NCBI GenBank assembly: GCA_025449115.1
Contig: JAHLKC010000014.1
Span: forward strand, 358,683-422,682
Length of the DNA: 64,000 nt
DNA from: Chytridium lagenaria
Taxonomy: Eukaryota; Chytridiomycota; Chytridiomycetes; Chytridiales; Chytridiaceae
Reading direction: 5' to 3'
Shown here piece by piece: positions 201 to 51,717 of the stretch. Each line of letters opens with the position of its first letter. Position 1 is the first letter of the stretch. A program made the translations under genes and the position numbers. The notes under the pieces are model-generated. The model saw only the letters and a list, made by a program, of their open reading frames with translations. It was not told the origin of the DNA and made no database searches.

Positions 201-231
201 TCATCCAAACCTCCCCCTTCCACCTCAACAG

Positions 232-2303
232 GCCTTTATGAACGAATTCTGGGCAATGTACTACCACTACCCCTCACCCCCTTCACCCGCGCAGGAGACG
301 GCATAACAACCCCAGCCCCCTCCCACCTAAACCGCTGTCCCTCCCCACTCACCCTCTCAACACATCGCGCGCGTCTCCAAACCCTCTCCAAGCCTCGTCA
401 CATCACCCGCAAACGTGAGCAAGTCCTCCTCCAAGCCGAAGTGACCGCCAACGATCTTCTCTTGAAACCCCGACGTCCTGTTGACAAGAAACCCGAACCC
501 CCCGTCACTTGTGTCAGGGTTCGATCCGCTCCGTTGATCAAGAGACGACCGGTTTCGGCCGTTTGGAATCGGTTGCCGAGTGTTGTTAGACCTAGGGGGG
601 AGGTGGAGTTTGGCGGTGGGTTGGAGGCGAGTGAAGTTGAGTTGAGGGGGGAGATGGGGAAGACGGTGAAGGGGTTGAGGGGGAGGGTTGGGGAGGTTGT
701 TGGGGTTTTGAAGAAACAGGCGTTTGTGAGGACGGCGGAGGAGGTGAAAATGGTGCATGTAAGTAGAGCGTTTTTATATGAGTTTTCTGCGTTTTTTTTT
801 GGTTATAGATCTCCTCTAAACATCATCTTTTTAACATAAACTATTTTAAAAAAAGTCATGTCTTAGAAATCTTCCGTGAGTATTCTACCTTTGCGTCAAC
901 GTTCTATATGATTTTTTATTGTTAACTCACTGACATTATTGAATATACTTTGCTTGAAAAGCGCGTTCCGTAAAATCAATTCGGACTTTATATTCAACCA
1001 ACTTTGCACAAAAGCTACGATTCAAGAACTTCCGCGTGGGACCATCATCTTTAATCAAGGTATTCTTTCTTTACGACCCTTAAACATTCCTCCTTTCGTT
1101 TCCAACACCTCTACCTCCCATTCCTATTTCATAACCAACACCTCCTCCTTCAACAAAAAAAAAAACAAAAACAAAAAACGAAAAAAAAAACAAACAAGGT
1201 GATCCCGGTGAATCCTGGCACGTCATCCTTACTGGCCGCGTCAACATCCTCGTCTCCAAAGGATTCGACCTCCACCAAAAATCCCACATCTCAACGCTTT
1301 CCAGTGGTGAAGCTTTGGGTCTCAAAGCGCTCGTGAACGACAGCCCACGCACCGCCACCGCCATCACTGAAACACCCGTCACCCTTCTCCGTGTCGCTAA
1401 AACCGATTACAAGAATCTCCTTGGGTTCCTCCATATGATTGAACCGGAAGGAGATGATGCATTTCTTGCGACATAGGGTACCCTTGTTTGTGTACTTTGA
1501 GAATGGGGCGTTGAGGAATGTGACGGAACGTGTGTCAGTGAGGAGGTATAAGGCGAATACGGTGGTGATACATGAGGGGGAGATGAGAGATCATATCTTT
1601 ATACTAAAGAGTGGGTTGTGTGCAGTGTATCGGAAAGTGGAGCCTCTGGAGACAAAAAAGAACAAGTATGTCATTTTTTATTATTAGTTGGGGCAGTTTA
1701 CTCCTGAAGCAAAAACAGGAAGATTCTTTCTACCTGACCTGCTTTCTCAACGTTTGCAAACCCGAATTCATGCTCTTTCTGATCACTCTAGACCGCCGCA
1801 TCGCGCCAACTAACATCTTTTTTCCCCGCACCCGTACTTGCACGTTAGAACTCCAAAGAAATCCAACTCTTTTTAGGAAACCTGGCTCCAGGTGCCCACT
1901 TTAACGAAGTCGTTGTGTCGGACCCCCACAACTACAGAGGCAGTCCATTCACGGTGGTAGCGATAGACGAGGTAGAATGCGCAACGATAGGAGCTGTTGG
2001 AGATTGGACGTCGATGAAGTTGAATGTGGGGTGAGTAAATTTGCGGGGATGACAAGGATAGAGTTGATTAGGAGTCGGGCTATGGAGATACGGAAAAGGT
2101 ATATTGTTGTTTTTTTTCCGTGTGTGTGTGTTTTAGAGAGAGTTATTGATGTTATGTACAGTCAGTTTAGAAAGTTTCAGACGCATGTTCTGAGACAACT
2201 TGCGAAAGAGAGGACAAGGGATCCTGAGGCAGGGATACAGGGTGTTTCCAGAGTATCTGTAGTTGATGATCGTCACCCGTTGCAGCAGTGGGTTATTAAG
2301 TAG
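232..2303 (+). CDS. Cyclic nucleotide-binding domain protein (5' end probably outside the window; frame-broken)
   Basis: Probable cyclic-nucleotide sensor with two cNMP-binding (cap-like) folds. The first exon (232-758) encodes a basic linker and a helix before the fold. An exon ending at 1059 joins 1199 through a GT-AG intron and gives the hallmark GDPGESWHVILTGRV, followed by a phosphate-binding-cassette-like GEALGLKALVNDSPRTATA (about 1309-1365). A second fold follows: EGEMRDHIFILKSG (about 1573-1614) and LFLGNLAPGAHFNE (about 1867-1908). The C-terminal exon ends at TAG 2301-2303. The frame shifts at about 1438 between FLHM and NRKEMMHFL, and the exon joins near 1665/1849 and 2035 do not keep frame. 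This is either sequence error or an early pseudogene. The architecture recalls CNBD-type proteins of flagellated eukaryotes. The family call is firm; the exact orthologue is not. Confidence 0.75.
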
Positions 2304-2892
2304 TAGATGAAATAAATATTTCAATTATTTATTATCCAGTGTGTTGTAATAAGTAAAAATGCATCATAAATATACATGTATCTATATGAGGGTATTTCTA
2401 TTTCCTTTCTATTTCCTATTAGGTAATAACCGATAGAGTAGATATAGGTAGAAACATGCATATGAACCAAGCAACCACAGTGTACTATAAGTAGAAACAT
2501 GCATTAGCTAATAATTCACTCTTCGGAAAATAACATATACTCCACATCTTTCATCTTTCCGCACCCTTGGGCTAATAGTTAATACTCTAATAGCTGCTGT
2601 GACTTTGACTGTCTTTTCAAAAAAGGAAAAATCAAAAAGTCAAATCAAATCAAATCAAATTATTAATAAAATAATTTTAATAATTAATAATTAATATTAG
2701 GAAAAACACGTCACCTCTTCACCCTGATTAATACCCGTCGTCATCCAACCGTCACTAGTATTTACGATTAGTCTACCAACCAACCAACTGACGGAGGGAC
2801 GGAATAAACGACATCTCTCTCTCCAGAGGTGACTTTTCAAGGAGGACGACGTGCATAAAGAAGGGAACGAGATCAGACAGGGAAAAGAAAGG
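2304..2892. other. Intergenic, AT-rich upstream region
   Basis: No gene seen. It holds two direct copies of GTAGAAACATGCAT (2448-2461 and 2491-2504), a pentanucleotide run (CAAAT)4 at 2641-2660 and an A/T-only stretch to about 2698. It probably contains the promoter of the gene starting at 2893. Confidence 0.5.
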
Positions 2893-5187
2893 ATGCCATT
2901 ACTACATCCCTTGTCTTCTTTTGAATCTCACGTACCTGCTGTGCTTGACCAGCATACTCTGTATCCTCTACCTCAGTCTCATCAGCAGAATCATCATCAT
3001 CAGCATCAGCATCATCATCATCCACCTGCATTCTACCGTCATCAGCAACAAGCATTGTTACAAGCATCAGCATCACCTTCAGCCCCCTTTATTGGCTTTT
3101 CTGGAACATTACGGATGGAGCAGCAGCAGCAGGAGCAACAGCAACGACACGAGCAGCAACCAGCAGCGCCTGCTTCCATCACGCTTTTGCTTATGGGTGA
3201 AGGAGAAAAGGATAACGTTCATTCAAAAAGGATGATGGTGACGATTCCGTCCATTGGCCCTGAAGATGAGGGCTCAGCGGATGCTGAGCAAGTCAACAAT
3301 AACAATAATGATAACAACAACAACGACGACATTAAGACATCCTCAGCCCATTCACACCGCACTTCATCAGCCTCCTCTTTCTCGTCCTCTTCATCCCCAT
3401 ACCCGTCCACGACAACATCACCACCGCGCTGGCCATCCTCATCTCCCTCCATCGACTCTGCCCGTCTCGTCATTCCCCGTCGCAGCCCATCATCATCTTC
3501 CAACTCTTCATCAGGCTCCTCTTCCTCTGTCATCACCATCGCATCCTCCTTCATCCCACATCCACAACAACCCCAACTCCATCCTTCTTCACACCCACCT
3601 ATGTCCAACCTCCACCACCCTTCATACAACCTCCATCGCGTCCCACAACCACAACACCAACACTGCCACATCCACCAGCATGGACCGATATTTTCTTTGC
3701 CCACACACGATCTCACTCCTCGTCCTCATCTCTCTCAAAACCACCCGAATCACCGACCCCTCCTCCAATGCGTCGATGGCCCTCCCTCGCATCCTTTCGC
3801 TCATCCTCAACAACCTCAACGACCTCCTTTCAACGTCTCGGCATGATGTCCCGTTCAGGTTCCACTAGACCCTTTACACCATCCACCCACGACATTCAAG
3901 AAGAAGGCATTCTTAATGATCCCCCTCAACGTCGCCGAGCCTTTTCCCGTCTCTCCATTCTAAATCGCTCCTTCACACCCCCTCCCCAAGCACAACCCGA
4001 AGTCTCATCAAAACGTTGGTCCATTTTTAGCAAACCTATTCGGCCTCACCTCGATGAACCTTCTCCTCTTCAGCGTACATCCATCCAAATCAACCCTGAA
4101 GACCAAGAACCTCCTCTAACCTCGCCCAAAAAACGGTTTTCCTGGAAAGTCTCCACAGACTCCATCTTCCCACTCCGTCGTCGTCAAAGCACAGCAACCA
4201 TCTCCTCAACCCACGACACACCCACCCCAACAACAACAGACGCAACGCAACCCTCCCTTTTTCGAACAGCAAGCACCCGGCTCAGCATCATGATGTCCCG
4301 CACCTCCATCATCTCCACAACAACCATCACAGAACAACCTCGTCAGAAACTCGGTCCCCTTCGTCTCCTCTCCCGTCGTCTCAAAAACCACCCAGACCCT
4401 CCCCCACCTTCCCCATCAACACCAAGACCCTCCATGGCGTACACTGACGTTGAATCCGATACCTACACCATGGAGGAAGCCCTTCAACTCGCAGCCGGTG
4501 TCTCCCGTCGCTCCCTCTCCATCACCACCATCCCAGCCTCAAGGCGTTCCTCCCTCTCCGTCTCTACAACGTCCCAGCCTATCCTTGAAGCCCTTAAAAT
4601 CGCCTTTAGCTCTGATCGACCCCAGTTTTTCGGCGAACAAGTCCCACCTCGAATCGCAGCGACACCGAGAACGTCAATGAGTCAAACTTCACCCGTGGAT
4701 ACTCCGTTACAGAGAGTCGGGAGTGTGTCTACTGTTCATCGTAAAAGCGTTATTGTGAATCATGGGAACACGGGGCATTGGTTTGTGACGCCCGCACCGT
4801 CTATAGCGTGGGGTGAGGAATCTTATAAAACCGCGTTGGATGTCGCAAGGCAGGCCACCACTATTTCTGAAAGAGTCTTCCTGATGTACGTATCCCCCAT
4901 TCCTTTCCTCTCCCCCCCCTCTTTTTTTTTCGCTTTTTTTTTGCTAAAACCATCCCCCCCTTTTCCCTATATAGATTCCTCCATCCATCTTTTCGTTTGA
5001 GACGGTTGAGATACCGAGAATGTCGGCTTCGTTACCGAGACCGAGGAGTGCACCGGAGGGTTGTGAGATGGCGAGACGGGGGAGTGCGCCACCTGCGACT
5101 GGGAGGGGGTTGGATCATAGACGACGGAATGCTAGACCCCCGCCGATTGTTATACGCGTTGCTTTGAATTTATGTTTTTTTTTTTAG
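2893..5187 (+). CDS. Low-complexity Ser/Pro/His/Gln-rich protein, function unknown
   Basis: I do not recognise this protein. The first in-frame ATG is at 2893. The N-terminal part has His/Gln runs (about 2980-3170), an Asn/Asp run (about 3295-3330) and long Ser/Pro tracts. Reading then moves one frame, somewhere about 3550-3690, to a long Ser/Thr/Arg-rich stretch with many RRxS-like sites (for example RRSSLSVS, RRRQSTATIS), which would suit basophilic kinases. An intron 4890-4974 (GTATCC...ATATAG) joins MY to IPPSIFSFETVEIPRM in phase 0, and the last exon ends at TAG 5185-5187. No structured domain is visible, so a regulatory scaffold or phosphoprotein is inference. The frame change may be a base error. 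Confidence 0.55.
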
Positions 5188-5984
5188 AATTTCTTTTTGA
5201 ATCCTCAACCACCCCCCCCCCCCCCCCCACCTTTTTTTTGTTCTTCATTAACCACGGTTTTGACGCGGTACGTCGATGTTACTTTTTTTGTTTGTTTGCT
5301 TTATTTTTACTTGTTTTTTATTGCGAATTTTGCATAGGATGATGACTTGTATACTGTAAAACCGGTTCTTTAATTTTCTTTTTTGCATACCCACCACTAC
5401 AACCGTAATATAACATTTATTTGCACTTTAGCTTTACTTTTTTCTCCCCTTTTTCATACTGAATAAATATGCATAACCAAATTTCGTCTTCCGTGATCAT
5501 CTTTAGCGTCGTAGGGTATGCGGTGCTCCATCCGCGAACGGCGCCCTCTATTATTGATTGCTTATGAGGGTAAACTCAAAAATCATTCTAGTTTACTCGT
5601 TGTAGTTCTTGACGTGCGTAAAGAAAACTGTACCTGCGACGGCACCCTATGTTTTTGGGTTTTTTTAAAAGTTTAGATCACAATTATTACGGGTTTTTTT
5701 GTGAGGCTGTCAACTTTTTTGATGTCGTACTCCTTACACTAGTTTTTTAGGAGAACCACTTTGAATGGAACCTTGTGCGATAACGCCTCAATTTTCGTCG
5801 TGATTGTGGTAGCGGTGACGATGGAGGGTGGGGTGACGCGTGAACTGAACCACGTTGCGTAGAATTTTGAAACAAAGGAAAATCGTCGTAGTCGTGACTG
5901 TGGTAGCGGCAGGGCTATTCACGAATGGTCGTACATTTTTTACGTGCATACGTGGGTTGAATGAATGAGTGGAGTTTTATTTTG
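5188..5984. other. Intergenic region with 17-base C run
   Basis: No gene seen. There is a homopolymer of 17 C at 5212-5228, and two loosely matching GTGGTAGCGG-containing segments near 5808 and 5900. It lies between convergent gene ends. Confidence 0.5.
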
Positions 5985-8900
5985 TCAAATCACTAGTAGG
6001 GAATTTAACACTGCGATAATAATACAAAGTACACCGGCTTTTAACATTTGGGAACCACTTCGCACGGGACTCGGAACAGCGCTTCCAGGATTCAAACCCT
6101 CAACACCCACCGTTGTCATCGTGGTCGTCGTGGTCGTGGTAGAGTTCACGACGGGGACACTGACATTCACGAGTGGCGGGACCACGCTTGGCATACACAC
6201 GGGTTGATAAGGGGTGAAGATGGGTTGAGCGGAGATGACAAGGTCCCTGTGGAAGGGGGTTAGGTAAGGGATTTTTTTGGGGGCTTAACTGTGTCATGAG
6301 GAGGTTTTGGACGGCGGTGGCGAGGGGGGGGCTTGTGGCGTTGCGGTGCATGATGCCGGCGTCGATGAGACGGGAGCGGGAGGTGCAGGCTGCGAGACCG
6401 AGGTCGTAGGTGAGGCAGAAATCTATGGGGGTGTGTTTGGGGTAGTACTTGGGGTGAGTTAGTGGGGATGTGGAGGAGGGGTGTTGGGGAAGGAGGGTGA
6501 GGAGGGTTGGGGTGAGGAGGGGTTTGGGGGGAGGTTAGGTGAGTTTGTGGCGGAGAGAGTTTGGGCATGGCGTGGGGAGGTTAGGAATTGTGGCGGAGGG
6601 CATGGTGCGCGGTGTATGAGGGTGTTTTTGGTTATGCAGGAAATGTGGATGGGAAAAAGTGTTTGGGGCAAGGGCATGAGGGACTGAAAGGGTGGGTGAA
6701 AGGTTTGTTTACCTGTACAAAGTTGAAGCACATTTCATTGTCGGTGGATTCACCGAATGTAGTTGTGAATGACCGTTCACCTAGGGTTGGTTTGTAGGCG
6801 CAGGTGGTGAGAAGGGCATCACCCGGGATGAGGGTTGTGGTGGATTTGTCGAGGACGGGGATCGAGCCTTGGAAGCTGCGATAAGAGGATGGTGGAAAGG
6901 GGGATGATGATCAGAGAATGTTAGAAAGGGGGTTGATGATGAAAGAATGTTAGAAAGGGGGTGGATGATTAGAGAATGTTAGAAAGGGGGTTAGCCGCAA
7001 GTAAAAAGAGAGAGAGGAGTTACTTGAAATCATAGTATCGCCTTGTCACGACCGGTGCGATTTCAAAGGTATCGTTACGGATATGACGGACGGTTTGGTT
7101 GAGTCCGAGTTGATGCATGTGGACGCCTTGACTACAAAAAAGTTAGGATGTGACAACGGGGGTTGGATAATACGATATGATGGTGAGGTTTCCGGGGAAC
7201 CGTTTCGTGCAACTGCTTGGACAGAGGTTTGGGGGTAAAACTGTAGGACGGTTTGAGTTTCCTGGGATGGAGATGCGGATTGAGCCGAGGGTTAAGGTGC
7301 CGACGTCGTGTTGGCGGAGTTGGTCCGTGTAGAAGATCTGTGGGTGGGTTAGTGTTTTGATGTGGGGCGGGGAGGGGTGGTGAGAAGAAAAATATGGCGG
7401 GGAAGAAGGCTTCGACGGTGTGGGTAGAGATGGAGTGGAGATGGGAGAGGGGAAATATGTCGGCGGGGTAGAAGGTTGAGAGGGTGAGGAGATCGAGAAA
7501 GAGAAGTGAAGTCAAGATCATAAAGGATCTTCGTGCTGATTGAAATGGATCACTCCACCAGCTTGCAACGGCCATGCAACACCAAAGGGGACGGTAACAT
7601 GTGATGAAATCGAAAACGTGGAAAGGAGAGTGGTCATAGTGAAAGGAAGAAAAGAGGAAATGATATGTGAAGGAAAATAGAAGGACTTGAAACTAGCAGA
7701 ATCATATGTTTACCCGTATCCCTGACGCGTCGACTCGATCTGGGATGAGCAATGGGTTGTCATAATGGACCTGCATGGCAAAGTAGCGGGATGCGCCGGG
7801 ACCTGTGCCAAACGCGATGCCGGCTTCAGCGGGGAGTGAATTGGGGGGTGCACCGGGGACCCAGGAGAAGGAGAACTATTTGGGGCGGTTAATAGTGGAA
7901 AAGGGGATAGGGATCCTACCTCGTTGCAGGAGGGGTCCATGGATTCACAGGGGTAGAGGTCGCCGAAGAAGCTGGGTGGGGAGGGGGGTGCTGAACAGCC
8001 GTAGATGATGATGTGATGGACTTCATACAGAAGAACCCCATCCCAAAAGGAAAATAGTGTTAGCAAAAACAACAAACAAACGATAAAATAAATGAATAAG
8101 TATTTTAAATGACACTCAAAGAAAACTCATAACAAACCCAGATTCGACATGGCCAACCCCTCATACTTGATCGCATGATACTTTTTATCAAACGGGAGTT
8201 TGAAGATGCGTGCACAGGTATGACGTTTTCTCTGTTGGGATCGTAATGTTCCCCATTCGAACATCTATGCTGCGGAGATTGGACGGTGGGGGAGGCGTTG
8301 AGAGGGTTGCTGTGACGTCCCAGAGGATCACTTCAGAACTGCCGCGATCGGACATGGCGTGCTTGGAGATGCCACGGGAGGAATCGCCGAACGCCCTAAC
8401 AATGAAGGAGTACGGAAATAACCAAAGAGATTTGAGCGGAAAAGGAGTGAGATCGTGAAGTGAAGGTAGGAAAGATAACAAAATTAGTTTGAAAGAGCGA
8501 AAGGGGTAAGAATAGCAGTAATGAAAGAGTATATATGAAGTAATTCAAACGCTATATCAAGTGTAGACATATAAGACGAGAAAAAACAAAACCAATACCA
8601 TATGACAGGAACCCTTGCATCTCGTTCAATAGATAAATCATTGGAGTCACATGAAACAACGGGCCTCCGAAACGTAAACACGGTGAACGTATCCGAAGGT
8701 TCCGGTGGTAAGATTAACGTAACATCCTGCGATGCATCGACGGTGGGTGTTGAAAAACTCGCCGAAAACGAGTCTTGCATGTAATATGATGAATTCTCAT
8801 ATTGTCGGAGAATGTAGATATCGGCGCCGGTCATGCCTGTCATAAATATGAGCAAAAGTTTGGAAACTGGGGTTGGGGAGGGGGGGTTGTTGCATACCTC

Positions 8901-9125
8901 CCATTTCGGATAGACCGAAGGCGATCCATTTTTTTGAGGTTGAAGGAACGTCAACGTCAACGCCAAAGGTGATGGTAGTGTTGTCCGGGATAGAGACCAG
9001 TGGAGAGCGTAGTTTGGTGAAAGGAGTTTGCAGTTCTGGAAAGTGGATTTGGGGAGTCTTGTGAAGCATGTTGCTGCGTATGCTGTGTGGACGAGGAAGA
9101 GGAGAGAGATGAGGGATGCTTTCAT
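5985..9125 (-). CDS. DOMON + copper type II ascorbate-dependent monooxygenase (dopamine beta-monooxygenase-like), secreted, probably GPI-anchored
   Basis: Predicted secreted copper hydroxylase. Ten exons: 9125-8898, 8836-8599, 8395-8138, 8020-7920, 7875-7714, 7337-7174, 7131-7024, 6875-6713, 6447-6290, 6246-5985. The order is signal peptide (MKASLISLLFLVHTAYA), DOMON domain (KKWIAFGLSEMGG, MTGADIYILRQYE), then both copper domains. All six expected copper ligands are visible: the His pair in VHHIIIYGC, His in MQVHYDNPLL, the HMH of QGVHMHQLG, and Met in NEMCFNFVQYYP. GIAFGTGPGASRYF and DASGIRIFYTDQLR are also very DBM-like. The tail is Thr-rich and ends with a hydrophobic segment (GVLCIIIAVLNSLLVI), as for a GPI signal. 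One-base frame breaks occur near 8990 and 8215. The substrate cannot be told from sequence. The family is known mainly from animals. Confidence 0.88.
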
Positions 9126-9596
9126 TGTTGTAGAATGTGTGGTGATGTCTATATGTGTGATGAATGGGTGTTAAGATATCCGGGAAATGACGGGAGGTGC
9201 GATATTTGACATATTGAAATTTGTCTTTTCAAAGATAGTAAATGTGTTATAGCAAGAGCGCTTTTTTTAGTTACAGATGCGTTACGGAGGCATGTCGTCG
9301 AAAGATAAGATTGGGCATTGATGGACAGCAGCTCTACAGGATCCATCATCATCCATGCACTGCTACCTGTTTTGTTTACAATGATGGAATTGTCTTATAG
9401 TAGTAAGACTGTATTCTGACAAGTTTGATGGCGAGAATGACTGGCAGGGAGGTGTATCATCGCATCATCTCACATGACCTTAAAGTTTTCCATGTAATAT
9501 TATTGTACCTGCATGCATGCAGGCAGCATATTATCAAAGGGGTTGAACTCTTTTCAAATCTTTACTCGAGGAAAAAGCATTCAAAAAGTTATCATG
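9126..9596. other. Divergent intergenic promoter region
   Basis: Short spacer between the divergently transcribed monooxygenase (-) and coiled-coil gene (+). No gene or clear TATA box was seen. Confidence 0.4.
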
Positions 9597-11726
9597 AGCA
9601 ATGGTGCTGGTGGTGATGTCATCATCACATCGGATGCCATCGTCACATCGGATGCCATCGTCGAGACTTGTAAGGAGGAAGAGGAAGTGCTCATGGCATC
9701 AAGTAGCATTCATGAGGATGAGGAGGTGAAGGAGGAGGTAGTCATTCCATCCAGTAACAATGAGAATGAAGCATCTCCTCTTGGCGATTCTGACATCAAC
9801 CATGCGCACAATGACCACATCATCCACCTAGACACTTTGCAAGACATGGACTCTCAATCTATTGCAAGCAAGAATGAAGCACCATCATTATCATCATCTT
9901 CACCATCATCCCTTCTTAACCCATCTATTCCCATCATCACTGACGACACTCAGCTACAAACTCATTCCACTTCTACATCCACCACCGCTCTTCCAACAAC
10001 CGAAACCGATTCTGAACTACAATCCCTCTCCAGCACCCTCCCATCCCAACCCTCACCACCCTTTCCACCCTCTCAATCCCTCAAACAATAACAGATCGTC
10101 GTCCCTCAATCGCCGAAACCCACACTAAAACCCAAACATTGAAACAGTCTCTTACGACGACGCTGGTAAACCCTCCATCGTTCGAACCACAACTACAACA
10201 ACAACCATTATCACAACCATCACCGTCTCTTCACAACCCCCTGTTTCACCACCCCAGTCCCTACAAAACAACCACAACCACTACCACCACCACCACCACC
10301 ACCACCACAAGGTCTACCCACCTACGCCTCCATTTACGAACCTTCATCACCTTCCTCCCCTCATCTTGCCAATCATGTCACCCCCTCATCCCCACGCTAC
10401 GCACCTCCCTCCCCTCGTCCCCAATTTGACGCCTCTGACCTTAAAGACATCACCCTCCCCGAGTCCTACCTTGAAGATGCTGAAGATTTTCATGTGGAGA
10501 TTGAGGACACGGGCGCTAGGTTGACGGATTACGCGGAGCTTTATCGGACGACCGCCGAGACGGTTGGTGAGCTTGTTGGGGTGCCTGAGCTTTTGAGGGA
10601 GCGGAAGGAACGAGTTGAGGAAATGAGGGGGAGGGAGAGGAAGATGGAAGAGGAGATGGAGGAGTTGAGAAGGAAAAGGGTGAAGGATGCTAAGGAGGTG
10701 GATGAGATTGAAGGGGTGAGTTTGCTGTTTGATTCAAATTTGATTTTAGAAGATCCCTTTTATTTCGGTGTTAATTTTTTTTTTGTTTCTCTTTTAACAC
10801 GGCCCTTGTTGGGATTTTTGCAATTCTATTTTTTATTCAACCTTTTTAAAACTATTTTCTTCTCTTACGATTTTTTAATTCTTTTACTTTTTCATGCACC
10901 CCAGCTTTCCTTCCGCTCCCTCCGTGCCCGCATGACTGGCCGTATTCGACAAGCCAAGATGAATGAGTTGAATGAGTTGGAGGCCACCACGGATCAACTT
11001 GTCACGCTTTCTCTGGAGATCGCAAAGTTGAGGGACGAAATTGCGAAAGAAGAGCAAGAGGTTTGTTGGTGTGTGTTTGGAGAATGGGGAACGGAGGCTG
11101 ACCCTTTTTTTTTTTTTTTTTTTTTTTTGCTGGTGTAGGTTGATGCGCTTGAGGTGAAGAATAGAGAGTTGATGGATGCTAGGAAGGAGTTGATACAGTA
11201 TTTGAATATGGTGCGTTTTTTATTTTCTCCTTTAAACACGCGAAACAATTAGCACTGTTGGCTCTTCCTCCTTTTTCGCTTAAAAAAAAACAAATATCTT
11301 AACAACGTCTCCCCTATTCTCAAAACGCCTCTCCTAGGCCTTTGAATCCGTCCACAACCCCATTGACGCCCGTCTCCACTCTGACCTCGACCGCATCAAA
11401 CGCACCATCCATCTCCACGACTCCCATCTCAAGCAAATCGTGCAGGCGCGACAGCTTCTCCTGGGTGCCCGTAATAATCTTGTCAAGGCGTCTGTGGTTG
11501 TGAAAAGGTTTTTGGAGACTCATGCGAGGAGTCTTTACAAAGGGTGGGATTGTTGGCGGAGGTGTTGGAGAAATGGCCGATGGGGATTACGGCTCAGCTT
11601 GAGGATGCGAGGACTTATTTGGTGGAGATGAGGATTGTGTTGAGGGAGGTGCCGGTGCCGAGGGGGAGTGAGAAGGTGGATGTGATGTGAGTTTGAGGTT
11701 TCGGTTTTGAATATGCTTTGTGGTTG

Positions 11727-11757
<31 letters not shown>

Positions 11758-12476
11758 TGATTTTATAAGGGGGTTTTTTTTTTAAATTTTTTTCTTCTTA
11801 ATTGAGGGGACGGGCTTGGGGGCGTTTTCTTCGGATTTCTCAATTGTTTCTCAATTGTTTTTGGAAAAAATGTTGTTTGTTTATCGTCAACCTTGTTGTC
11901 ATGCTATTAGTCTAACTCTTTTTTTTCTTCCTAAGGATGGATCGAATAATTTCACATGCTTCCATCCCCACACTCCCTCCACCTCCCACATCCTCGACAA
12001 CCGCAAACGCCTTCTCCCCCCGGCATCCCAACAACCCCCATTGCAGGCACCCCATCCACCTTCCCCCCCTCCGCATCCTTGACCCCCTCCTCCGCACGCG
12101 TAACGACATTGACTCTCTCAAATCCCGCGCAGACGCCGCGCTCCGCTGGCTCTTCACTTCCATCCTCCACATAGCCAAAGTTCGAGACGCCCTCCTCCCC
12201 AACCTCAAAGACTCCCGCACCGCCCTTGTCATGCATCGACTCCTTGAAATGGAGGCATGCGCGTCCTCCCCTGTCATCGTTCGACGCGTCCCGGAAGCTG
12301 AAAGTGCTTTTGGACGGGCGGATACCACGCATAGTCGATCGTCGAATGGATCTGAGGGGACGAGGAGGCTTTGGGATGGGGTTGGGAGTTTTGGAGGTGG
12401 GGATACGGAGAGTTGTGATCCTTTGATTTTGATTCCGGAGGCTGGGGTTGTTGAGGATGTGGGTGTTGGAGGGTGA
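9597..12476 (+). CDS. Coiled-coil protein, function unknown
   Basis: ATG at 9597. The N-terminal third is acidic and Ser/Thr-rich with a (CCA)n tract; frames slip between about 10085 and 10320. It resumes as GLPTYASIYEPSSPSSP and continues into a charged, heptad-rich coiled coil (ELLRERKERVEEMRGRERK, EEMEELRRKRVKDAKEVDE). Introns are bounded at about 10717/10909, 11060/11140, 11211/11338 and 11689/11936. Later exons add LEIAKLRDEIAKEEQEV, KNRELMDARKELIQYL and DSHLKQIVQARQLLLGARNN, then a helical tail (LLRTRNDIDSLKSRADAALR). The stop is at 12474-12476. The length of coil suggests a cytoskeletal or tethering role, but I recognise no family. Frame breaks near 10090 and 11545 interrupt the reading. 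Confidence 0.6.
10283..10307. repeat. (CCA)n microsatellite
   Basis: Uninterrupted trinucleotide run inside the coiled-coil gene. Depending on frame it encodes His, Pro or Thr runs, and it is a likely slippage point for the frame changes around it. Confidence 0.8.
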
Positions 12477-23814: not shown

Positions 23815-25470
23815 ATGGCATCCACTGCACCTGCATCTGCATCTAATAATGCTGCTAATGCCCCTCTAAGCGCAAACATCTCCATCAGCACTCCTAATGC
23901 TACTTCTTCTGGTGATGATGCCCTTACCTCAACCGTGACTCCAAAGAATCCTGTCACTGCAAAACTAGGGTGGATGGACACTCTCCTGCCTCTGTGGATC
24001 CTTATTGGTGTGATACAGTTTCTATTTTCCCATGCAATTCTTTTACGTTTTGACGTTTACTGGGAGTTTGATATCCTAATGGCATTATATTTATTCAGCT
24101 ATGGGTCTTGGTCTTATCCTCGGTTACTTTGTTCCCTCTGCAAGAACGGCTTTGGACTCTGGCAAGATTGCCGATGTCTCCATCCCCATCTTTGTAGGTC
24201 TTCTCTGGATGATGTATCCTGTCCTTTGGTGAGTAAACAAGTTTATTTTGTTTTGTTTTGTTTCATATATTATACTGACACGGTGTCTTCATTACTCAAA
24301 TAACAGCAAGGTCAAATACGAACGCCTCCCCTCCATCATCCGCACCAAATCCAGCATAAAGATTCTCGGCATGTCCCTCCTTCTCAACGTCATTGTCGCT
24401 CCCATCATCATGACCTCCCTTGCATGGATGACCCTCCCGACCTCCCCAATCACCGCACAGGTGTTATTCTTGTCGGAGTCGCCCGTTGCATCGCCATGGT
24501 GCTCATCTGGAACCAATTGGCCGGTGGTGACGCAGAGTGGTGCGCCATCCTCGTCGCCGTCAATGCCCTTCTCCAACTCGTTCTTTTCGGCCCCACCGCG
24601 TATTTCCTCTGCGTTATTGTCGGGAGGGGTGACTCGTATCAAATTGATCTTTGGCTCATCACTCGGTCTGTACTCATCTTTTTGGGAATCCCGCTTGTTG
24701 GAGGTGTTATTACGAGGTTTTTGTTCAGGTTTGCACTTGGACTCAAGTGGAAGGGGGCTTATAAGTGGTACGATGAGACTTTGATGAAGTACCTCGGCCC
24801 AACTTCACTCCTGGGCTTGCTCTTTACCATCGTCGTCATGTTCACTCTCCAGGTATTATCCTTTTCCTAAGCATTTCCTTTTTAATATTTTCATCAAATT
24901 ATTAATTTAAATATGACCATATCTCCTTAAACAAAATAATGCAGGGCCAACGTATTGTCAACGATATCACGGGCGTCCTCCGCGTCTCCGTCCCTCTCCT
25001 CCTCTACTTCACCATCGTCTTCTCCGGTACCTTCCTTATCTGCCTCTACTTCACCCGCACCCCCTTCACCATCGCCGTCACCCAATCCTTCACCGCCGCC
25101 GGCAACAACTTTGAACTCGCCATCGCCGTCGCCGTCGCCTCCTACGGTATCGACTCCAAAGAAGCACTAGCAACCGTCATCGGTCCTTTGATTGAAGTCC
25201 CCGTTCTTCTTGGTCTCGTCCACCTTGCACTTGCTTTCAAGACTCGGTATGACGCCCACATGATACGAAAGTACGGGAGCGCGAATCCGGATGGAGTCAA
25301 TGAGGACATTGTGGCGGGGTGTGGCAAGTTGCAGCAGGAATTGTGGGGACGTGGGTGGGAGAGAGGAAGTCGCAAGAGATGAAGAAGACTTTTTAAAGGC
25401 CACCAAGACGGATATGGAGTCGACAAGGAAAGCCGAGCAACAAGCTTCTATTGCGACTCTAAACGCTTAG
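23815..25470 (+). CDS. ACR3: Arsenite efflux transporter ACR3
   Basis: Plasma-membrane arsenite exporter of the ACR3 (BART) family with about ten membrane spans. ATG at 23815. Exons: 23815-24007, 24099-24228, 24307-24852, 24945-25470. Splicing gives [14 protein letters not shown] and [20 protein letters not shown], a classic ACR3 start. Further hallmarks are [20 protein letters not shown], the conserved-Cys helix [40 protein letters not shown], and [20 protein letters not shown]. The C-terminal tail is charged ([15 protein letters not shown]) and ends with TAG 25468-25470. One-base frame breaks are near 24435 and 25340. The ~45-residue Ala/Ser/Thr-rich N-terminal extension is poorly conserved in the family. 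A regulator or arsenate reductase was not seen nearby. Confidence 0.93.
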
Positions 25471-26061: not shown

Positions 26062-27878
26062 TTATAACTTGGATAAAACGTTCACATTGAACAACTCCAA
26101 AAGCGCTTTCCCGACCACCTCAAAATCTGATACCTCATTATATATCTAAAGCAAATAAAACCGTTAAAAAATAAAAAAGCAAAAGGCAAGAAGCAAGAAG
26201 CAAAGAAAGGGCATGTGATATTTCTTCTTACCTGCGCCGAGAACCTCACAAGCCATTTCCCACCATGCATATAAACTTGTGCACTCATACACCGTTCCTT
26301 CATCAACCGATATTGCACCGTCAACATATACTCATCCTTAGTCCCCTTAAACCCTTCACTCGCCTTCGCCTCCTCCGGCACATACACATTTACCATAGAC
26401 CCCATCAACCCCTCACCACCCGTCGATCGTTCCCCACTCTCTCCAACCCCCATCATTACCCTCGTCCCCCACATCCTCGCCACAACCTCACCACCCTTCA
26501 CCAGCAAGCTCATGGCAATACCCCATAATCACCTTCTCCCCCCCAACCCACTCCCTAAACCTCAACGCCTCCTCAACAGCAAGCCATCGCGTCACATCAC
26601 CGGTTCCCGTCCACATAAAGCTTCGTTTCCAATCCCGGGGACTCGTGGGGACGTCGGAGAGGGTGGGGTGGACAATGACGGATTTAGAGGAGAGACGGGA
26701 TGGAGCGGGGGAACGGAGGAGACGGTGATGACGTGGGGAGAGGTAGATGATGGCGGCTCCCACGGGGAGTGTAGAACCATTTGTGGAGGTTTTGTGACGA
26801 AAAGATCGGGGTCTGTGTGGGGTCAAGAGGGAGGTGAGAGGGATTTGACCGATAGCGTGGGCGCCGTCGACGACGGTGAAGATGTTGTGGCGTTTGCACC
26901 AGTGGGACGAGGGACCAGAGTGGGAGAATAACACCAGGAACTGACTATGTTTTGTTTGTTTTGTTGTTAGAAATGGTGGAGCAAGATGGGAGGATATGCT
27001 TACGGTGATAGCGTCAAATATCGCCATGACGATAATGTTCCCCTCTTGCTCTTCTTTCTCGATCGCGGCCGTGACTTTGGCGACGAGATCAGCGTCAGAA
27101 ATTGGGTAGGTGACTGGGACCGTCACAAGATCGATATCTTCATTATCGGCTGTGTATGCTGTTCCTAGTCCAACGAAATGATAGACCTGCAAGCATAAGA
27201 CTGTTAAGTAAGGGAAAGAATGGGAGAGTGATAGAATGATAAAAGGAGTAAACGAAACGTTTGTAGATCCTAGAAAAAAATACATAAACGAGAGAGAATG
27301 ACCAGCAAGGGAAGCATGACCGAAGACCATCACACCGCAAAAGAACATGACCATCAATTACGAAAGTACACATGACGAAATCATTCCAATACCGCAGAAC
27401 AATTAAAGTAATAGCAGCGAAACCAACATCCATTAAACCAAAATAGAACCCCTACTCACCGTCGACAACTGCAAAACCTTCAACCGTCCCTTAAACCCAA
27501 CAACCCCTCCATCCGTCTCCTCTTCACCGCCCCAATACTCCTCAAAGCAGCACTCACCCCCGTTGTCGCGTTCTCCACAAACGCAATATCACTGGTCCTC
27601 ACCCCAAGAAACCCAGCAACCTTCCCCAACGCCCGTTCCAGCTCCTCACCAATCTGAAACTTGTAGAACTCGTCCGGATTACTTTCGACTTTGCTCAAAA
27701 GCGTGAGACGATGAGACATGACGGCGTGAGGGACTACACCGAAGGAACCGTGGTTGAGGGAGATGTAGCTGAGAAGGGGGTTAGATAAAGCAGGAATGGG
27801 AGGGAGTTACTTTTCGTCGAGAGGGAAGAGGGCGCGCATGGGATGGCCAAAGGCCGGGAGAGGGTTTGTGTAAGCCAT
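26062..27878 (-). CDS. Class V PLP-dependent aminotransferase (isopenicillin N epimerase-like)
   Basis: PLP enzyme of fold type I. Exons: 27878-27811, 27768-27460, 27186-27004, 26944-26232, 26145-26062. ATG at 27878 gives MAYTNPLPAFGHPMRALFP, then the family's opening YISLNHGSFGVVPHAVM and FVENATTGVSAALRSI. The cofactor region has IFTVVDGAHAIGQIPL (Asp contacts the PLP ring nitrogen), and NLHKWFYTPRG, in a shifted frame, carries the Schiff-base Lys. The last exons give VNVYVPEEAKASEGF and IYNEVSDFEVVGKALLELF. Breaks fall near 27535, 26900, 26790 and 26505. The reaction cannot be assigned from sequence: homologues include epimerases, cysteine-desulfurase-like and ergothioneine-pathway lyases. 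It lies convergent with ACR3. Confidence 0.82.
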
Positions 27879-28556
27879 TGATGAGTGGACGTTAGTGATG
27901 GTGGATGATGGTGGCGCTGCTTGATCCTATTGTGCTTTTATGTGTATGAGGAGACTGGATGGATTGTGATTTCGAGTGATTTGTATTTTGTGGGCGTCTA
28001 GTTTTCCATGCGTGGAGAGATTCCTTCATAACACCGGATAAAATAATGGGTGGATTTGAAAATGAACGATCAAGGGGTGCTTTCAAAGTATTACCGGGAA
28101 AGCATGCGTTCGTGTCGAGGTTCGGAATCGAGTTGATTCATCGATTAATGACAGAATCCTTCAAGGCCTGACTTCCCCACCCAACAATAGGTACTGCATT
28201 ATTGCTGTACATGCTGCGAGATGGGACAACGTACGAGAAAGCGTAATTCTGTATCCACGCAAATACATAAATATTTTACATCTAACGCGCTTTGGCTCGG
28301 TAACTCCGTTCTCTCAAACAGATACAAGAACAAAAAACAAAACCAAAAAAGAAGGAGATAAGTGAAGTCACAGGTTTGCAAAGGCTGACAGAGACGGGAG
28401 AAATAGTCGGAATAGCAATCTATTTAAAATCGAACTATGAGAATTCTTCTATTACTCCGTGTTTATCGATGAGGTACTGACAATGTAGATACGTAATATC
28501 AGCGAGGGGGAAAATTGAACAAATTAAAGATGACGGCTTCCACGATTTTCCACCTT
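27879..28556. other. Intergenic, about 680 bp
   Basis: Upstream of the aminotransferase and downstream of kinase copy 1, both on the minus strand. No RNA gene or repeat recognised. Confidence 0.4.
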
Positions 28557-39119: not shown

Positions 39120-41115
39120 ATGGCTCCATCAACCACATCTGCATCTGCCTCTACTGCAGCAAAGGATCTTTCTCCTACTACTGCCACTGCTGCTACTACC
39201 ACCACCACCACCACCACGTCATCATCATCATCATCAAGTGCTCCTCATGTCTCATCTCTAGAGATCATTGGTGAGTTCATCTTGTTTTTTTATATCATTC
39301 TTATCGAGTGAGTGGGTGAAGCCTCTCACGTTTTCTTTCTTTTTTTTTTACCATGTTTGACGTGAAGGGCTTTTATCTGTACTCTACTAACTATATTTCA
39401 TCACTGCTTGTATCCATGGCATTGTAGATCTTGAGCACACCTATGGCGCTCACAAGTACGTTTGAACCTCATACCGTCCATCATCTCCATCTCATTTCCC
39501 ATCCCAACAAAAAGACTAATCACTTCTCTCCCTTTCAAAAGCTACCACCCCGTCCCCATGGTCTTTTCCCGTGCCGAAGGCGCCCACGTCTGGGATCCCG
39601 AAGGCAAGCAATACATTGACTTTCTCTCTGCCTACTCTGCCGTCAACCAAGGTCACGCCCATCCCAAGATCATCAAAGCCCTCATTGACCAAGCCTCCAA
39701 ACTCACCCTCTCCTCTCGCGCCTTCTACAATGACGTTTTTGGGCGGTACGCCAAGTACGTTACAGAATATTTCGGTTACGACATGGTCCTCCCCATGAAC
39801 ACGGGCGCCGAGGCGGTGGAAACCGCTATCAAGTTGGCCAGGAAATGGGGGTACTTGAAAAAGGGTATTCCTGATGGTAAAGCCATCTTGTTGGCTTGCA
39901 CCAATAACTTTCATGGACGAACCATCACCATCATTTCCATGAGTTCCGATCCTGACGCTACAAAGGGGTTTGGACCGTTTGATCAACGCGTCGGATGTGA
40001 GTGTCCCGCTACAGGTCGGAAATTGGAGTACAACTCTGTCTCTGATCTTGAAGACGCTTTGAACGCGCATGGAGCTCATGTCTGTGGGTTCCTTGTTGAA
40101 CCTATTCAAGGGGAAGCGGGTATCTTTGTCCCTGATGACGGGTACCTCCGTGCCTGTCGTGAACTCTGCACCAAACACAATGTTCTTTTCATTGCTGATG
40201 AGATTCAGACGGGGTTGGCTAGGACTGGGAAGATGCTTGCTATTGATCATGAAGGGGTTCATGCGGATGTGTTGGTGTTGGGGAAGGCGCTTTCGGGAGG
40301 TGTTTATCCTGTTAGTGCTGTGTTGGCTGATAAGGAGGTCATGTTGTGTATTCAACCGGGGGAGCATGGGTCTACTTATGGGGGGAATCCTTTGGGTAGT
40401 GCGGTTGCTATGGCGGCTTTGGAGGTGATTAAGGAGGAAGGGTTGGTCGAGAAGGCGGATCGTTTGGGACATTTGTTTAGGGAAAAGTTGAGGGAGATTG
40501 ATAGCCCGCTTATTGCTGGAGGTGATTGATTGGATTCATTGATTTTCTTTTGGTTTCCTCTTTTTCCTCGTTTTTTTCTTTAGCGTTTTATTTCTCTTGT
40601 TTTCTTTTTTGACTGTTTTTTTCTTTCTTTCCTTCTCAATGTTTTCCTTATTATCCTACTTTTCTTGTTAAAAACTCATTTATTTCTAACAATCTTCATT
40701 TCTTTTTTTGACTGTTTTCTTTCTTTTTATTTTCCTTTCCAATGTTTTTCGTTATTCTGTTATTCCTTTTGATAAACAACTCATTTTCTCTAACACCCTC
40801 CCTCTATATTAGTCCGCGGCAAAGGTCTCCTCAACGCTCTCATCATCGATCACTCCAATCCGCCCCCATCACCGCCTGGCACATTTGTCTCATCCTCAAA
40901 GAAAACGGCATCCTCGCAAAACCTACCCACCAAAACATCATCCGTCTCGTAAGTCCCCCCCCCCCCCCTTTTCCCCCTTCTAACATTTTTTTTTAAAGGC
41001 ACCCCCACTTTGTATCAGCGAGGAGGAACTCGTGAGAGGGATTGAGATTATTAAAAAGACGTTGGTGAGTGTTGTTGGGATGAAGGTGGAGGATGTGCCG
41101 GGGGTGGAGCTTTGA
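39120..41115 (+). CDS. OAT: Ornithine aminotransferase
   Basis: PLP enzyme converting ornithine and 2-oxoglutarate to glutamate semialdehyde, in arginine/proline metabolism; cytosolic in yeast (CAR2). Exons: 39120-39270, 39428-39455, 39542-40521, 40813-40948, 40999-41115. The 50-residue Thr/Ser-rich N-terminus is low complexity. Core motifs: [70 protein letters not shown] (Asp contacts the PLP ring) and VLGKALSGG with the Schiff-base Lys (about 40278-40304). The C-terminal exons give [34 protein letters not shown] and [16 protein letters not shown] single frame break near 40863. It shows the clearest C-to-G codon switch in the window. Confidence 0.95.
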
Positions 41116-41706: not shown

Positions 41707-41729
41707 TGGTGTTGGAGGTATACCGTCAA

Positions 41730-45395: not shown

Positions 45396-45427
<32 letters not shown>

Positions 45428-48081: not shown

Positions 48082-48120
<39 letters not shown>

Positions 48121-48728: not shown

Positions 48729-49523
48729 GGGGAAGATGTGTGTCGATTCATTCTATGAAGTTTTATCATTCCCTCCTTCTTTTTTAGTCTTTGCCTCCAA
48801 AAATCCAACTTTTTTTTGGTTAGAGTTAGGAACTTTGCTCTTTTTGCCTCTTTGATACCTAAGAGGGGAGCGTGCTTCCTTTTTCGTGTGCTATTCTATA
48901 CGTTAACTTTGGACCTTTTCACCCTTCTTTGCTGCGGTCTCTATTATCGTTTGTTTTTCAATTTTACAATTTTGGTTTTCGAAAACACCGCTTTATGTCT
49001 CATTGATGGATGTGCGGGATTCCTTTATTACCTTCCCCCCCTTTTTTTTTGTTTGACTGATCTGTTCATTCTTTGTGGTGCTGGGCGCCTATGTACTTTT
49101 TTGTTTTGTTTTGTTTTTAACTCCTTCTATTATACGTGTTTGGTTTTCTATTTTTGGGGTAATGTGTTGTGGAAGTAGAATCTCATGAAGTGAAAACGCT
49201 TTTTATAAACAAATCAAGGGAATTTTGATAATGTTTCTTTTTTTCCCTTTAAAATTAAATATATACTGAATAAAACCTGACTCACTCAAGCTGGCAGGAC
49301 GCCAGTTCCGCCGTTTAGTAGGACCTGACTATTGGAAGACTATTAGAACAGCTAAAATAGGTCTGATAGACCGTTATACTATACTCAAGTATGTATGCAA
49401 TAGAATTTAAATTGATAATCACAACTTCACTTATTTGAGGTTAATTATAGTGCTTAAATTTTCGAACCCTCTACTGTATTTTCTATGGAACAGGCAACAC
49501 CATCCGCTGATAATTAATTATCG
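48729..49523. other. Intergenic, T-rich 3' flank
   Basis: T-rich sequence following the bHLH gene; no gene supported. Confidence 0.4.
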
Positions 49524-50006
49524 TGTTGCTTGCCCCATTGAATTTGGTTTAATTAACCCAGTATTGCTTTTTGTGGTTGTACTTAGGCCTGTTACCCGGC
49601 GAACGGATCCGGTCTTGGTCATTCCTGACTGAGCTCCGCCGATAACCTCTTGGGATGAGGAAATTTAAACTTTGAAAGGTTTTTTTTTTTTTATCGCACC
49701 ATTATCTCTTGGAAACTGAAGTTGGGAATGAGTTTTATTGTTCAGAAAAAGGTAAAGAAACAAGAGGGGAAGAACCATCGCCTTTTATACGCGATGAACA
49801 CATGTAAGGAGAAGATAATAAACAACACAATAGAAACAAAAGGAACATTGTGGAAACTTCAACAAACATATAGAGAAAGAAAACGTTAACATAAGTATAA
49901 GTAAATTTATTCCATCATATTCCACATTCCCCGCAACCAACCTCAATCCCAAAATCCCAAATCCTAAACCCGACAAATCCCAATCCCGACTTTTTCATTT
50001 GCAACA
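49524..50006 (-). mobile_element. Copia-type LTR (3' LTR of a minus-strand element)
   Basis: Bounded by TGTTGC at 49524 and GCAACA at 50006, a perfect 6-base terminal inverted repeat. On the minus strand it follows a purine tract (GAGGGGGAG) as expected for a 3' LTR. Inside, on the minus strand, are a TATA-like GTATAAAAGG and AATAAA. Length 483 bp. The other LTR was not found in the window. Confidence 0.65.
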
Positions 50007-50170
50007 CTCCCCCTCAAGCATTGAACTTGACGATAAGTTCATTGCTTGTTTATTGTAGAAGGGTCCCAACGTTTCATTACCAAGCGTGCCTGGAGAGCCG
50101 TGAATTGAGGTCGAGGTAAGCCTTTTGTCAACGTATCCGCCACTTGTCCAGAGCTGCGAACAGGTTGCAC
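50007..50170 (-). pseudogene. Copia RNase H C-terminal fragment
   Basis: Minus-strand reading gives SGQVADTLTKGLPRPQFTAL followed by QARLVMKRWDP, matching the ADxLTKxL end of Ty1/copia polyproteins. Only the last ~40 codons remain; the rest of the element is missing because threonine synthase sequence begins directly next to it. Confidence 0.75.
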
Positions 50171-50171
50171 C

Positions 50172-51717
50172 GTGACGACCTTGTTCCTCAACAAGTGGGC
50201 AGACCTGCCTTACTATCAGATTGCCTTTCGTCTCTTCCGTCGCTACGTAGAGACCCCACAGCAGAGCGCAGAGAGTGGTATCCCTGACGACGATCTTCTT
50301 GACATCCTTAAGAGATCGTTTGCCACATTCTCGCATCCCGATGTCACCCCAGTCAAAGACCTCCCCGTTGTCCCCACATCCTCATCGGATGCAAAACCCA
50401 ACCACCTTCATGTCCTAGAGCTCTTTCACGGCCCCACCTTTGCCTTCAAGGATGTTGCTCTTCAAGTTCTTGGAAACCTCTTCGAATACTTTCTTGCCCG
50501 CAAGAACCGCCGCGCAAGCCCAGGTGAGCCCGTCCACCGGATCAATGTTCTCGGCGCCACATCTGGAGACACGGGTGGTGCCGCCATCTACGGTCTTCGT
50601 GGAAAGAAGAACGTCAACGTTTTCATTCTCCACCCCAAGCACCGCATCAGTCCAGTTCAAGAGCAACAAATGACATCCGTTCTCGATGGAAACGTCCACA
50701 ACGTTGCTCTCGACGGCTCCACCTTTGACGACTGCCAAGAAACCGTTAAGATTCTTTTCGGTGACCGCGAGTTTAAGCAAAAATACAAACTCGGTGCCAT
50801 CAACTCCATCAACTGGGCGAGAATCCTCGCTCAAACCTCCTACTACTTTGCATCCTACCTCCACTTTTGCAAATCTCACATTAAGCGCGATACCACCAAA
50901 GGCGCTACACCCACCGATCTCCCGAAGGTTCAATACTCTGTCCCCACTGGAAACTTTGGCGACATCCTCGCCGGCTACTACTCTGTCGCATGGGTCTCCC
51001 GATCCACAAACTCATTATCGCCACCAACGAAAACGATATTCTCCATCGTTTCTGGGAGACTGGTGCTTACACAAAACCCACATCACCTACATCCACCACC
51101 ACCGCTGATGACGTGAAAATGACTCTGTCGCCTGCCATGGATATCCTCGTCAGCTCAAATTTCGAGAGGTTATTGTGGTACCTTGCTCGAGGCGATTCCA
51201 TCACATCCACACCTGATCTCACCGCATCCTCCACCGCATCCCGTGCCATCTCCACATGGATGCAACATCTCCGTACAGGAAATGGATTTACGGTTCCCTC
51301 AAACGTTCACGCTCTTTCCAAGGAAATCTTCACGTCGCGTCGTGTCACGGATGCGCAGACCACTGATGCTATCAGGCGGTACTTTGTTCTTCCTGAGAAC
51401 AGGTACGTGCTTGACCCGCATACGGCTGTTGGTGTTGTAGCGGCTGAAGAGGTGTTGGCTGGATTGGAGGAGAGTGAGAGGGAGGGAGTTGTAACGTGTG
51501 TGTTGGCAACTGCGTCACCTGGAAAGTTCCCTGATGCTGTGGATGAGGCTGTGAAGGGCTTTGCGGGGTTAAAGTATGAGGACTTTGCACCAAAGGCGTT
51601 GGTGGAGCAGAAGGGTTACCAAAGAGGGTAGTAGACGTGTTTACGGGGGGAGATAAGGCGCTTGCGTTGAAATTTGTGAGGAAGGTGGTAGTGGAGACTG
51701 TTGGGGATGAGTTTTGA
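50172..51717 (+). CDS. THR4: Threonine synthase, 5'-truncated
   Basis: PLP enzyme converting O-phosphohomoserine to threonine, last step of threonine biosynthesis. One long exon. It begins at TTLFLNKWADLPYYQ, which aligns some 50 residues into the yeast enzyme, so the N-terminal segment that normally opens the protein is absent. HGPTFAFKDVALQVLGNLFE holds the Schiff-base Lys (about 50428-50490). GATSGDTGGAAIYGLRGKK, LGAINSINWARILAQTSYY and VPTGNFGDILAGYYS are canonical. A frame break near 50988 separates the last from MGLPIHKLIIATNENDI; another near 51620 precedes the end at TGA 51715-51717. The 5' side abuts a copia fragment, so the gene is probably broken unless an upstream exon lies elsewhere. 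Confidence 0.92.

Follow-up and report, generated by a model that had tools for sequence, protein, structure and literature searches.

Why do genes in this stretch of Chytridium lagenaria DNA change from C-rich to G-rich on their coding strand part-way along, whichever strand they lie on? The window, that is, the whole 64,000-nucleotide stretch that we analysed, is the end of contig JAHLKC010000014.1 (C14) in the 41.9-Mb, 356-contig assembly of this chytrid fungus of the Chytridiales, and the pattern concerns its nuclear genes. We find a strand skew at the DNA level that is phased to the layout of coding and non-coding sequence. Read on either strand, many AT-rich gaps (intergenic regions and many introns) have C-rich DNA on their right and G-rich DNA on their left. 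Within the coding block that two gaps enclose, the sign reverts, as a rule in one step. The exon is a better unit for this skew than the gene, and the pattern is common but patchy.

The ornithine aminotransferase (OAT) gene at 39120..41115 (+), recognized by tblastn, a Pfam Aminotran_3 match (E 1e-103) and a gene model, serves as an example. Its exons lie at ~39120-39270, 39428-39455, 39542-40522 and 40812-40948, with a last exon that begins at 40999 by homology or 41019 in the model and ends at 41115. By tblastn, P0002 covers the two long exons at 99.7-100%, and P0003 (Dinochytrium) carries the match on through the 3′ exons. Exon 3 (39542..40522, +) steps from C to G at about 40200, its third-position skew going from −0.43 to +0.89. 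The T/C-rich gap that follows, intron 3 (40523..40811, + strand, ~290 bp), holds a G-to-C flip at 40553, and homology resumes beyond it. By eye, two similar tandem T/C-rich stretches of ~100 bp each lie at 40600-40800 within this intron.

All six counts given in the initial annotation proved exact: 33 C and 4 G at 301-360, 2 C and 34 G at 601-660, 31 G and 8 C at 26701-26760, 33 C and 3 G at 26401-26460 and, in OAT, 38 codons ending in C and 4 in G among the 60 from 39543, with 1 and 29 among the 60 from 40251. It listed five further switches, four of which are real when the 240 bp to the left and right are compared by Fisher's test (10490, p = 7e-28; 12290, p = 3e-18; 25230, p = 7e-10; 51370, p = 4e-7). 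The fifth, at 4740, is no switch (44 G and 87 C against 47 G and 68 C in the same test, p = 0.29). The C-to-G change itself was found in genes of both strands and exon by exon.

The cumulative skew over 1-51700 has 52 turning points, as against a mean of 14.5 and a maximum of 21 in 20 runs with randomised G/C labels, and the GC skew of 300-bp segments over 1-51,700 has a standard deviation of 0.318 where 0.086 is expected, with a range from −0.79 to +0.72. Beyond the window we sampled 250 kb of the genome as five 50-kb blocks (C50, C20, C14 100-150 kb, C1 and C5), plus 21 homology loci. Blocks C50 and C20 nearly match the window (standard deviations 0.263 and 0.276) and form with it the three strong blocks; C14 100-150 kb, C1 and C5, the three weak blocks, give 0.189, 0.172 and 0.166, respectively. 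Turning points exceed the null maximum in every block but C1 (16; null maximum 19).

Results on predicted genes rest on a gene finder that is blind to C versus G at third positions. It rendered OAT nearly correctly, and some of its models are doubtful (low-complexity frames, possible merges). An earlier finder, which merged genes through false introns and left intron length un-normalised, was discarded. Partial genes, window genes after 51700 and low-scoring genes were left out throughout, and exons under 180 bp or 80 codons were omitted where so stated. The gene-score cut-off was 20 for gene tenths, exon fifths, random placement, exon-length classes, intron skew classes and the estimate from 28 short introns; 30 for step counts, step versus ramp, flanks, pairing, context and 2.5-kb windows; and 15 for the comparison of neighbouring promoters, the 80 introns under 80 bp and flips versus predicted features. 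Because some predicted models look wrong, and because exon resets might simply reflect merged genes, the key claims were re-tested on homology genes. These were chosen by Pfam family (chaperonin, aldehyde dehydrogenase), blind to skew, and modelled around the family matches; 18 of the 21 loci were used, and three more genes and OAT bring the set to 22. OAT is counted twice, as a homology and a predicted gene, in the exon-length, context, pairing, step-versus-ramp, step-position and intron-class analyses, and once in the 166-exon and the flank and amino-acid counts.

Third-position skew rises by 0.209 within internal predicted exons (99 scorable of 100), while random placement on the same spliced coding sequence gives 0.027 (standard deviation 0.054), with 0 of 300 placements as large. 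Last predicted exons also rise (0.215; 0/300), and first predicted exons have no clear rise (0.091; 63/300). In the 18 homology genes, the 49 exons of at least 180 bp have a difference between halves of +0.338 (standard error, se, 0.073), 35 of them going up, as against 0.038 (standard deviation 0.064) for random placement of the same exons, with 0/500 as large. In the statistics of all 22 homology genes, where the OAT exon was read one base out of frame, 43 of 61 exons go up (Wilcoxon p 2e-5) and the skew drops by 0.304 (se 0.063) across 62 introns. The clearest case is the Hsp60-like gene L038, which runs from −0.57 to +0.12, then after a 50-bp intron from −0.60 to +0.09, and after an 88-bp intron from −0.67 to +0.38.

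The change is mostly abrupt: among 62 exons of 130 or more codons (OAT twice), a step fitted best in 44, a ramp in 7 and a flat line in 11. Significant steps occur in 76 of 166 exons of 80 or more codons, 69 of them C-to-G and 7 G-to-C, in proportions of 36:5 for plus-strand and 33:2 for minus-strand genes. A count of 62 internal predicted exons gave 25 significant steps, 23 of these C-to-G. As a fraction of exon length, the median step position is 0.55 for homology genes, 0.59 for strong blocks and 0.41 for weak ones. Step position scales with the length of the exon, at 0.81 when measured from its start and 0.48 when measured from its end. Fifty exons shorter than 220 bp are nearly flat, the gradient is strong from 320 bp upward, and 17 exons of 320-460 bp run from −0.54 to +0.33.

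The exon-wise rise bears on the explanations already proposed for skew along fungal genes, namely different mutation regimes at initiation and termination (the phase of Pol II) or adaptive avoidance of C at gene ends under CTP-limited elongation, which the text of a 2011 paper leaves open (PMC3315797). When 69 predicted genes are pooled, 4-fold skew does run from −0.27 in the first tenth to +0.15 in the last, as such causes would have it. The 18 homology genes, most of which lack their gene ends in our models, have no monotone trend (4-fold sixths −0.34, −0.34, −0.05, −0.29, 0.02 and −0.26), though their exons rise, and the sign reverses several times within one transcript. We therefore regard a cause acting on the whole transcription unit as unlikely. 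Gene and exon are one and the same in intron-poor yeasts, where these causes are inseparable from effects of the coding/non-coding border; an intron-rich chytrid separates them, as the sign resets inside transcripts and introns participate, and the search moves to processes beside gaps.

The occurrence of the switch on both strands had been taken to mean that it follows gene direction and is not explained by replication. This argument is invalid: a block that is C-rich and then G-rich is its own reverse complement and reads alike from both strands. Its presence on both strands is therefore uninformative about direction, and the information lies in where the two kinds of flip fall. Without recourse to gene models, G-to-C flips in the strong blocks sit at a GC content of 0.423 (76 flips) and C-to-G flips at 0.514 (79; p 7e-13); the corresponding values in the weak blocks are 0.402 (37) and 0.489 (39; p 1e-6). 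Against predicted features, G-to-C flips in the strong blocks fall 13 times in exons, 25 in introns and 40 between genes, and C-to-G flips 48, 6 and 25 times; the weak blocks give 8, 7 and 24 against 20, 1 and 18.

Non-coding DNA takes part in the skew. Introns between C-rich edges mostly range from −0.5 to −0.15 (34 introns, four classes), and those that follow a G-rich edge and precede one that is not C-rich are mostly positive (32 introns, five classes). Along 15 predicted introns of 140-520 bp that lead from a G-rich to a C-rich edge, the skew goes +0.36, +0.24, +0.04, −0.03 and −0.49; some of these may be intergenic, which leaves the DNA-level point unaffected. In the flanks of 60 stepped exons the skew is −0.3 upstream and +0.17 downstream, the latter at 30-60 bp. 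The first two codon positions shift in the same sense as the third, and all four next-base contexts shift; a cause tied to CpG-type context finds no support. A codon programme linked to translation, one of the causes proposed in the initial annotation, would account for a skew that is strong at third positions. It finds no support in introns that share the skew of like-skewed neighbours, in the shift of the other codon positions, or in a reset at introns, which ribosomes do not see, and we consider it highly improbable.

Selection on the pre-mRNA for splicing, by which C-rich starts and G-rich ends would aid exon recognition or pair across exon and intron, is improbable too, if less so. It would suit the observation that the C-rich regime begins before the acceptor (exon start versus intron −60 to −25, 0.42, p 1e-4). 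We saw no clear specific pairing, either between exon start and own end (z −0.07, se 0.15; 60 tested of 87) or between exon end and next start (z −0.23, se 0.13; 60 of 116). Moreover, amino acids shift too, glutamate (E 2.4-fold) and glycine going up after the step and histidine (H 0.5-fold), threonine and proline down, and some spliced host genes have no skew.

The two halves of the exon come close to mirroring each other in composition. In 69 stepped exons, where choosing the step location favours a mirror match, C at pyrimidine-ending codons (NNY) goes from 0.654 before to 0.348 after the step and G at purine-ending codons (NNR) from 0.369 to 0.675, with intervals that overlap the mirror values. 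Fixed fifths of 80 exons in the strong blocks, which involve no choice of step, give 0.62 to 0.39 and 0.39 to 0.62. The pyrimidine share at 4-fold sites of stepped exons drops from 0.71 to 0.45, with A and T nearly constant. Transitions alone would not produce this, and we infer a C-to-G component on one strand. Over the exon fifths of the strong blocks 4-fold skew rises from −0.48 to +0.15, AT skew goes from −0.11 to −0.05, and T exceeds A.

This mirror form bears on what we see as the main rival, two-way transcription, in which gaps, including 3′ ends and introns, would start both sense and antisense transcripts, each with the C-bias of a start site. C-bias near fungal starts is published (PMC555766, PMC3315797), the expected geometry equals the observed one, and the skew extends some 60-120 bp into flanks. 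However, the mirror-equal amplitudes in strong blocks seem to require antisense output about as large as sense output, and a neighbouring promoter has no visible effect on 3′ ends in a comparison of low power (tandem 0.09, se 0.13, 21 cases; convergent 0.14, se 0.11, 18 cases). It is a possible explanation that we rate as rather unlikely. Antisense transcription from 3′ ends was among the causes named in the initial annotation; it, R-loops and a process that works from both ends each keep some probability.

A process that is blind to the direction of transcription fits four of our observations: the mirrored composition, the introns that take part, the places of the reverse flips and amplitudes that are nearly equal. 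The explanation we tentatively favour, at well short of even chances, is that single-stranded DNA flanking non-coding gaps mutates in a strand-symmetric way, perhaps as recurrent breaks are resected and refilled. A process beside gaps would leave one strand unpaired on each side, and on that strand C and A would be altered (C to T, A to G and some C to G). To the right of the gap the reading strand would then lose G and T and to the left C and A, which would give the mirror image. The likeliest agent would be 5′-to-3′ resection followed by error-prone refilling at breaks that recur in open non-coding gaps, where resection would expose the forward strand leftward and the reverse strand rightward. 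The process would have gone on until synonymous sites were at equilibrium, and break-poor domains and young insertions would remain flat. Human meiotic hotspots supply the sign and the mutation types assumed here: a break there leaves the forward strand single-stranded on its left and the reverse strand on its right, the flanks are asymmetric for C>N and A>N versus G>N and T>N, and the text of that study names translesion synthesis as capable of C>G, C>T and A>G (PMC7615360).

Several observations weigh against this explanation. GC, which biased conversion at breaks would raise, does not track skew gene by gene at third positions (−0.08, p 0.74, 22 genes), though it does in 2.5-kb windows (0.37, p 4e-5), and steps lie some 160-600 bp from the edges (interquartile range) as against 1-2 kb for human resection. 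Flips have no excess of poly-A/T over GC-matched controls, although windows richer in A6/T6 runs show more skew (0.44), and the mirror is lopsided in the homology set (NNY C 0.63 to 0.49, NNR G 0.55 to 0.72). Introns of 40-60 bp, which are unlikely break sites, reset in that set (−0.23, se 0.10, n = 16), and predicted introns under 80 bp have no reset (−0.04, n = 80; another estimate, +0.10, se 0.12, n = 28); in predicted genes the reset clearly depends on intron length, in homology genes it does not. Finally, 33 introns of 40-140 bp that lead from a G-rich to a C-rich edge (15 homology, 18 predicted) already begin neutral to C-rich, which puts the fall on the donor side and not in mid-gap, and exon-end skew barely predicts that of the next 40 intron bases (0.15, p 0.055). 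Since the breaks themselves are something we infer, gene-wise GC does not go up with skew, the distances are shorter than in human resection, some 50-bp introns reset and the fall is on the donor side, we hold resection at breaks no more firmly than stated.

The donor-side fall lowers the weight of break-associated mutation and raises that of the second rival, transcription-coupled mutation reset by splicing, in which RNA-DNA hybrids would accumulate along an exon and be cleared at introns. This would explain why the skew resets at introns, at the donor in those under 140 bp, and why the gradient is strongest in long exons (320-460 bp). It leaves unexplained a roughly equal and opposite C-rich first half, introns that share the skew of their surroundings, and first exons that lack the pattern (20 predicted, with 4 C-to-G and 3 G-to-C steps), and we think it unlikely, a shade less so than a regime that spans the whole transcription unit.

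The skew is not uniform. The contig end at 51900..64000 (no strand), which bears repeats, is without it (300-bp standard deviation 0.12 over 51.9-64 kb, 0 of 40 segments above 0.4). Flat stretches in C1 include Copia-type retrotransposon sequence, and flat host genes in C5 encode the 51-kDa subunit of complex I and hydroxyethylthiazole kinase. Mean exon gradients in the 22 homology genes range from +1.0 down to −0.1, with none in three chaperonin-family genes (L027, L028 and L036), the HSP70 gene L047 or L041. L037 (C70:23900-26000), a 1.77-kb open exon with a chaperonin-family match, is G-rich throughout (third-position skew +0.6) and has no switch. In the window, 2.5-9.7 kb forms a single large C-to-G domain (2451..9741, no strand) with several predicted genes, where the plus strand is C-rich to ~5.5 kb and then G-rich to 9.7 kb and several gaps fail to reset. 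Given these undivided long exons and the large unreset domain, the exon rule is a strong tendency and no law.

Elsewhere in the window, the open reading frame at 30..839 (+), labelled a cNMP gene in the initial annotation, flips C-to-G at 508 and G-to-C at 808; it has no Pfam match, and that identity is unconfirmed. Similarly, the longest frame of the predicted 4-exon gene at 26488..28141 (−), formerly called an aminotransferase, has no Pfam match; in its own sense the gene steps C-to-G, from −0.57 to +0.85 in exon 2 and −0.82 to +0.74 in exon 4. A predicted multi-exon gene at 9594..12476 (+), maybe merged, has C-to-G flips at 10470, 11461 and 12292 and G-to-C flips at 11213 and 11879. The gene at 23815..25382 (+) belongs to the sodium/bile-acid symporter family (Pfam SBF, E 5e-28 on 24304-24867), and its last predicted exon steps at ~25240 from −0.94 to +0.40. 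The gene at 50220..51631 (+), without a Pfam match and which we take from its motifs to be threonine-synthase-like, flips C-to-G at 51333.

Apparent breaks of the reading frame occur in two conserved genes, OAT (40812-40957) and the threonine-synthase-like gene (near 50990). The Hsp60-like loci L038 (C31) and L039 (C60) are 96.2% alike over 1984 bp, with 75 mismatches and 31 gaps; most mismatches in exons are transitions, those of the first long exon fall almost without exception on a single codon position, and the pair is too small for a mutation spectrum. On sequence grounds they are possibly uncollapsed alleles of a diploid, and the frame breaks together with the many single-base gaps between them suggest indel errors in the assembly. 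Two predicted genes 12 kb apart in opposite orientation, 29328-30885 (−) and 43043-44787 (+), have near-identical N-terminal halves; they are presumably kinase-like, judging by their motifs, and their C-terminal frames have no Pfam match. Within the skew-free contig end, a ~400-bp repeat lies at 55525-55920 and 60143-60539 and is LTR-like in abundance: a 2-kb probe from this end matches at least 43 genomic places, at least 37 of them being one ~400-bp stretch at 91-98% identity. Long antisense reading frames face strongly skewed exons (39516-40472 on the minus strand, 26512-26931 on the plus strand and others), a trap for gene prediction. This may matter more widely, since strong skew should mislead codon-based predictors and such antisense frames accompany it; the skew also shifts amino acids by exon position.

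Taken together, and this is a more doubtful step than the mechanism itself, the skew might be a fossil map of breaks that keep recurring in the same non-coding gaps, introns included, and that have dominated synonymous substitution and driven codons and amino acids on the two sides of every hot gap to opposite strand extremes, the known fungal gene skew being its one-exon special case. If so, genome sequence alone would yield a fine-scale hotspot map. Among the titles listed by literature searches that mostly covered journals open without subscription, none reports an exon-level version of the skew, and the search for later work on the 2011 fungal pattern turned up none. A 2004 paper on splicing-coupled asymmetries, cited in PMC3315797, may be the main precedent.

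At the level of genes the pattern is already known. The text of the 2011 paper describes genes of unicellular fungi as C-biased at the 5′ and G-biased at the 3′ end, also at 4-fold sites and in amino acids, with skew that reaches the flanks and AT skew that is positive over the gene and flat along the unit, in a data set that includes Batrachochytrium dendrobatidis, Spizellomyces punctatus and Allomyces macrogynus (PMC3315797). Several of these features recur here in the 69 predicted genes, the skewed 4-fold sites, the flat AT skew and the flanks (−0.10 over the 100 bp that precede the start and +0.14 over the 50 bp that follow the stop, fading farther out). Its authors binned genes or open reading frames, and in the main text the word 'exon' is absent and 'intron' occurs once, in the discussion (PMC3315797). 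In contrast, the homology genes and the steps of internal exons show no single gradient per gene here; exons step from about −0.6 to +0.5, introns participate, and skewed and flat domains alternate. Beyond that paper's text, figures excluded, go the phasing by exon, the part played by introns, the mirrored spectrum and the domains in which the skew is on or off (PMC3315797). The C-bias at transcription starts in plants and fungi (Fujimori 2005, PMC555766) is similar in that, in some fungi, the reading strand next to the non-coding start region is C-rich. In the passages considered, that bias concerns the 5′ side only, with no mirror at 3′ ends or introns, whereas the mirror is present here (PMC555766). 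The asymmetry at human meiotic hotspots, a mirror about a centre in which C and A change on the exposed strand, was determined from rare variants over ~2 kb at PRDM9 sites (PMC7615360). Ours is known from composition alone, with flips in the window typically every 0.2-4 kb; in sign and type this composition fits the hotspot pattern, but short introns have their fall at the donor and not in mid-gap.

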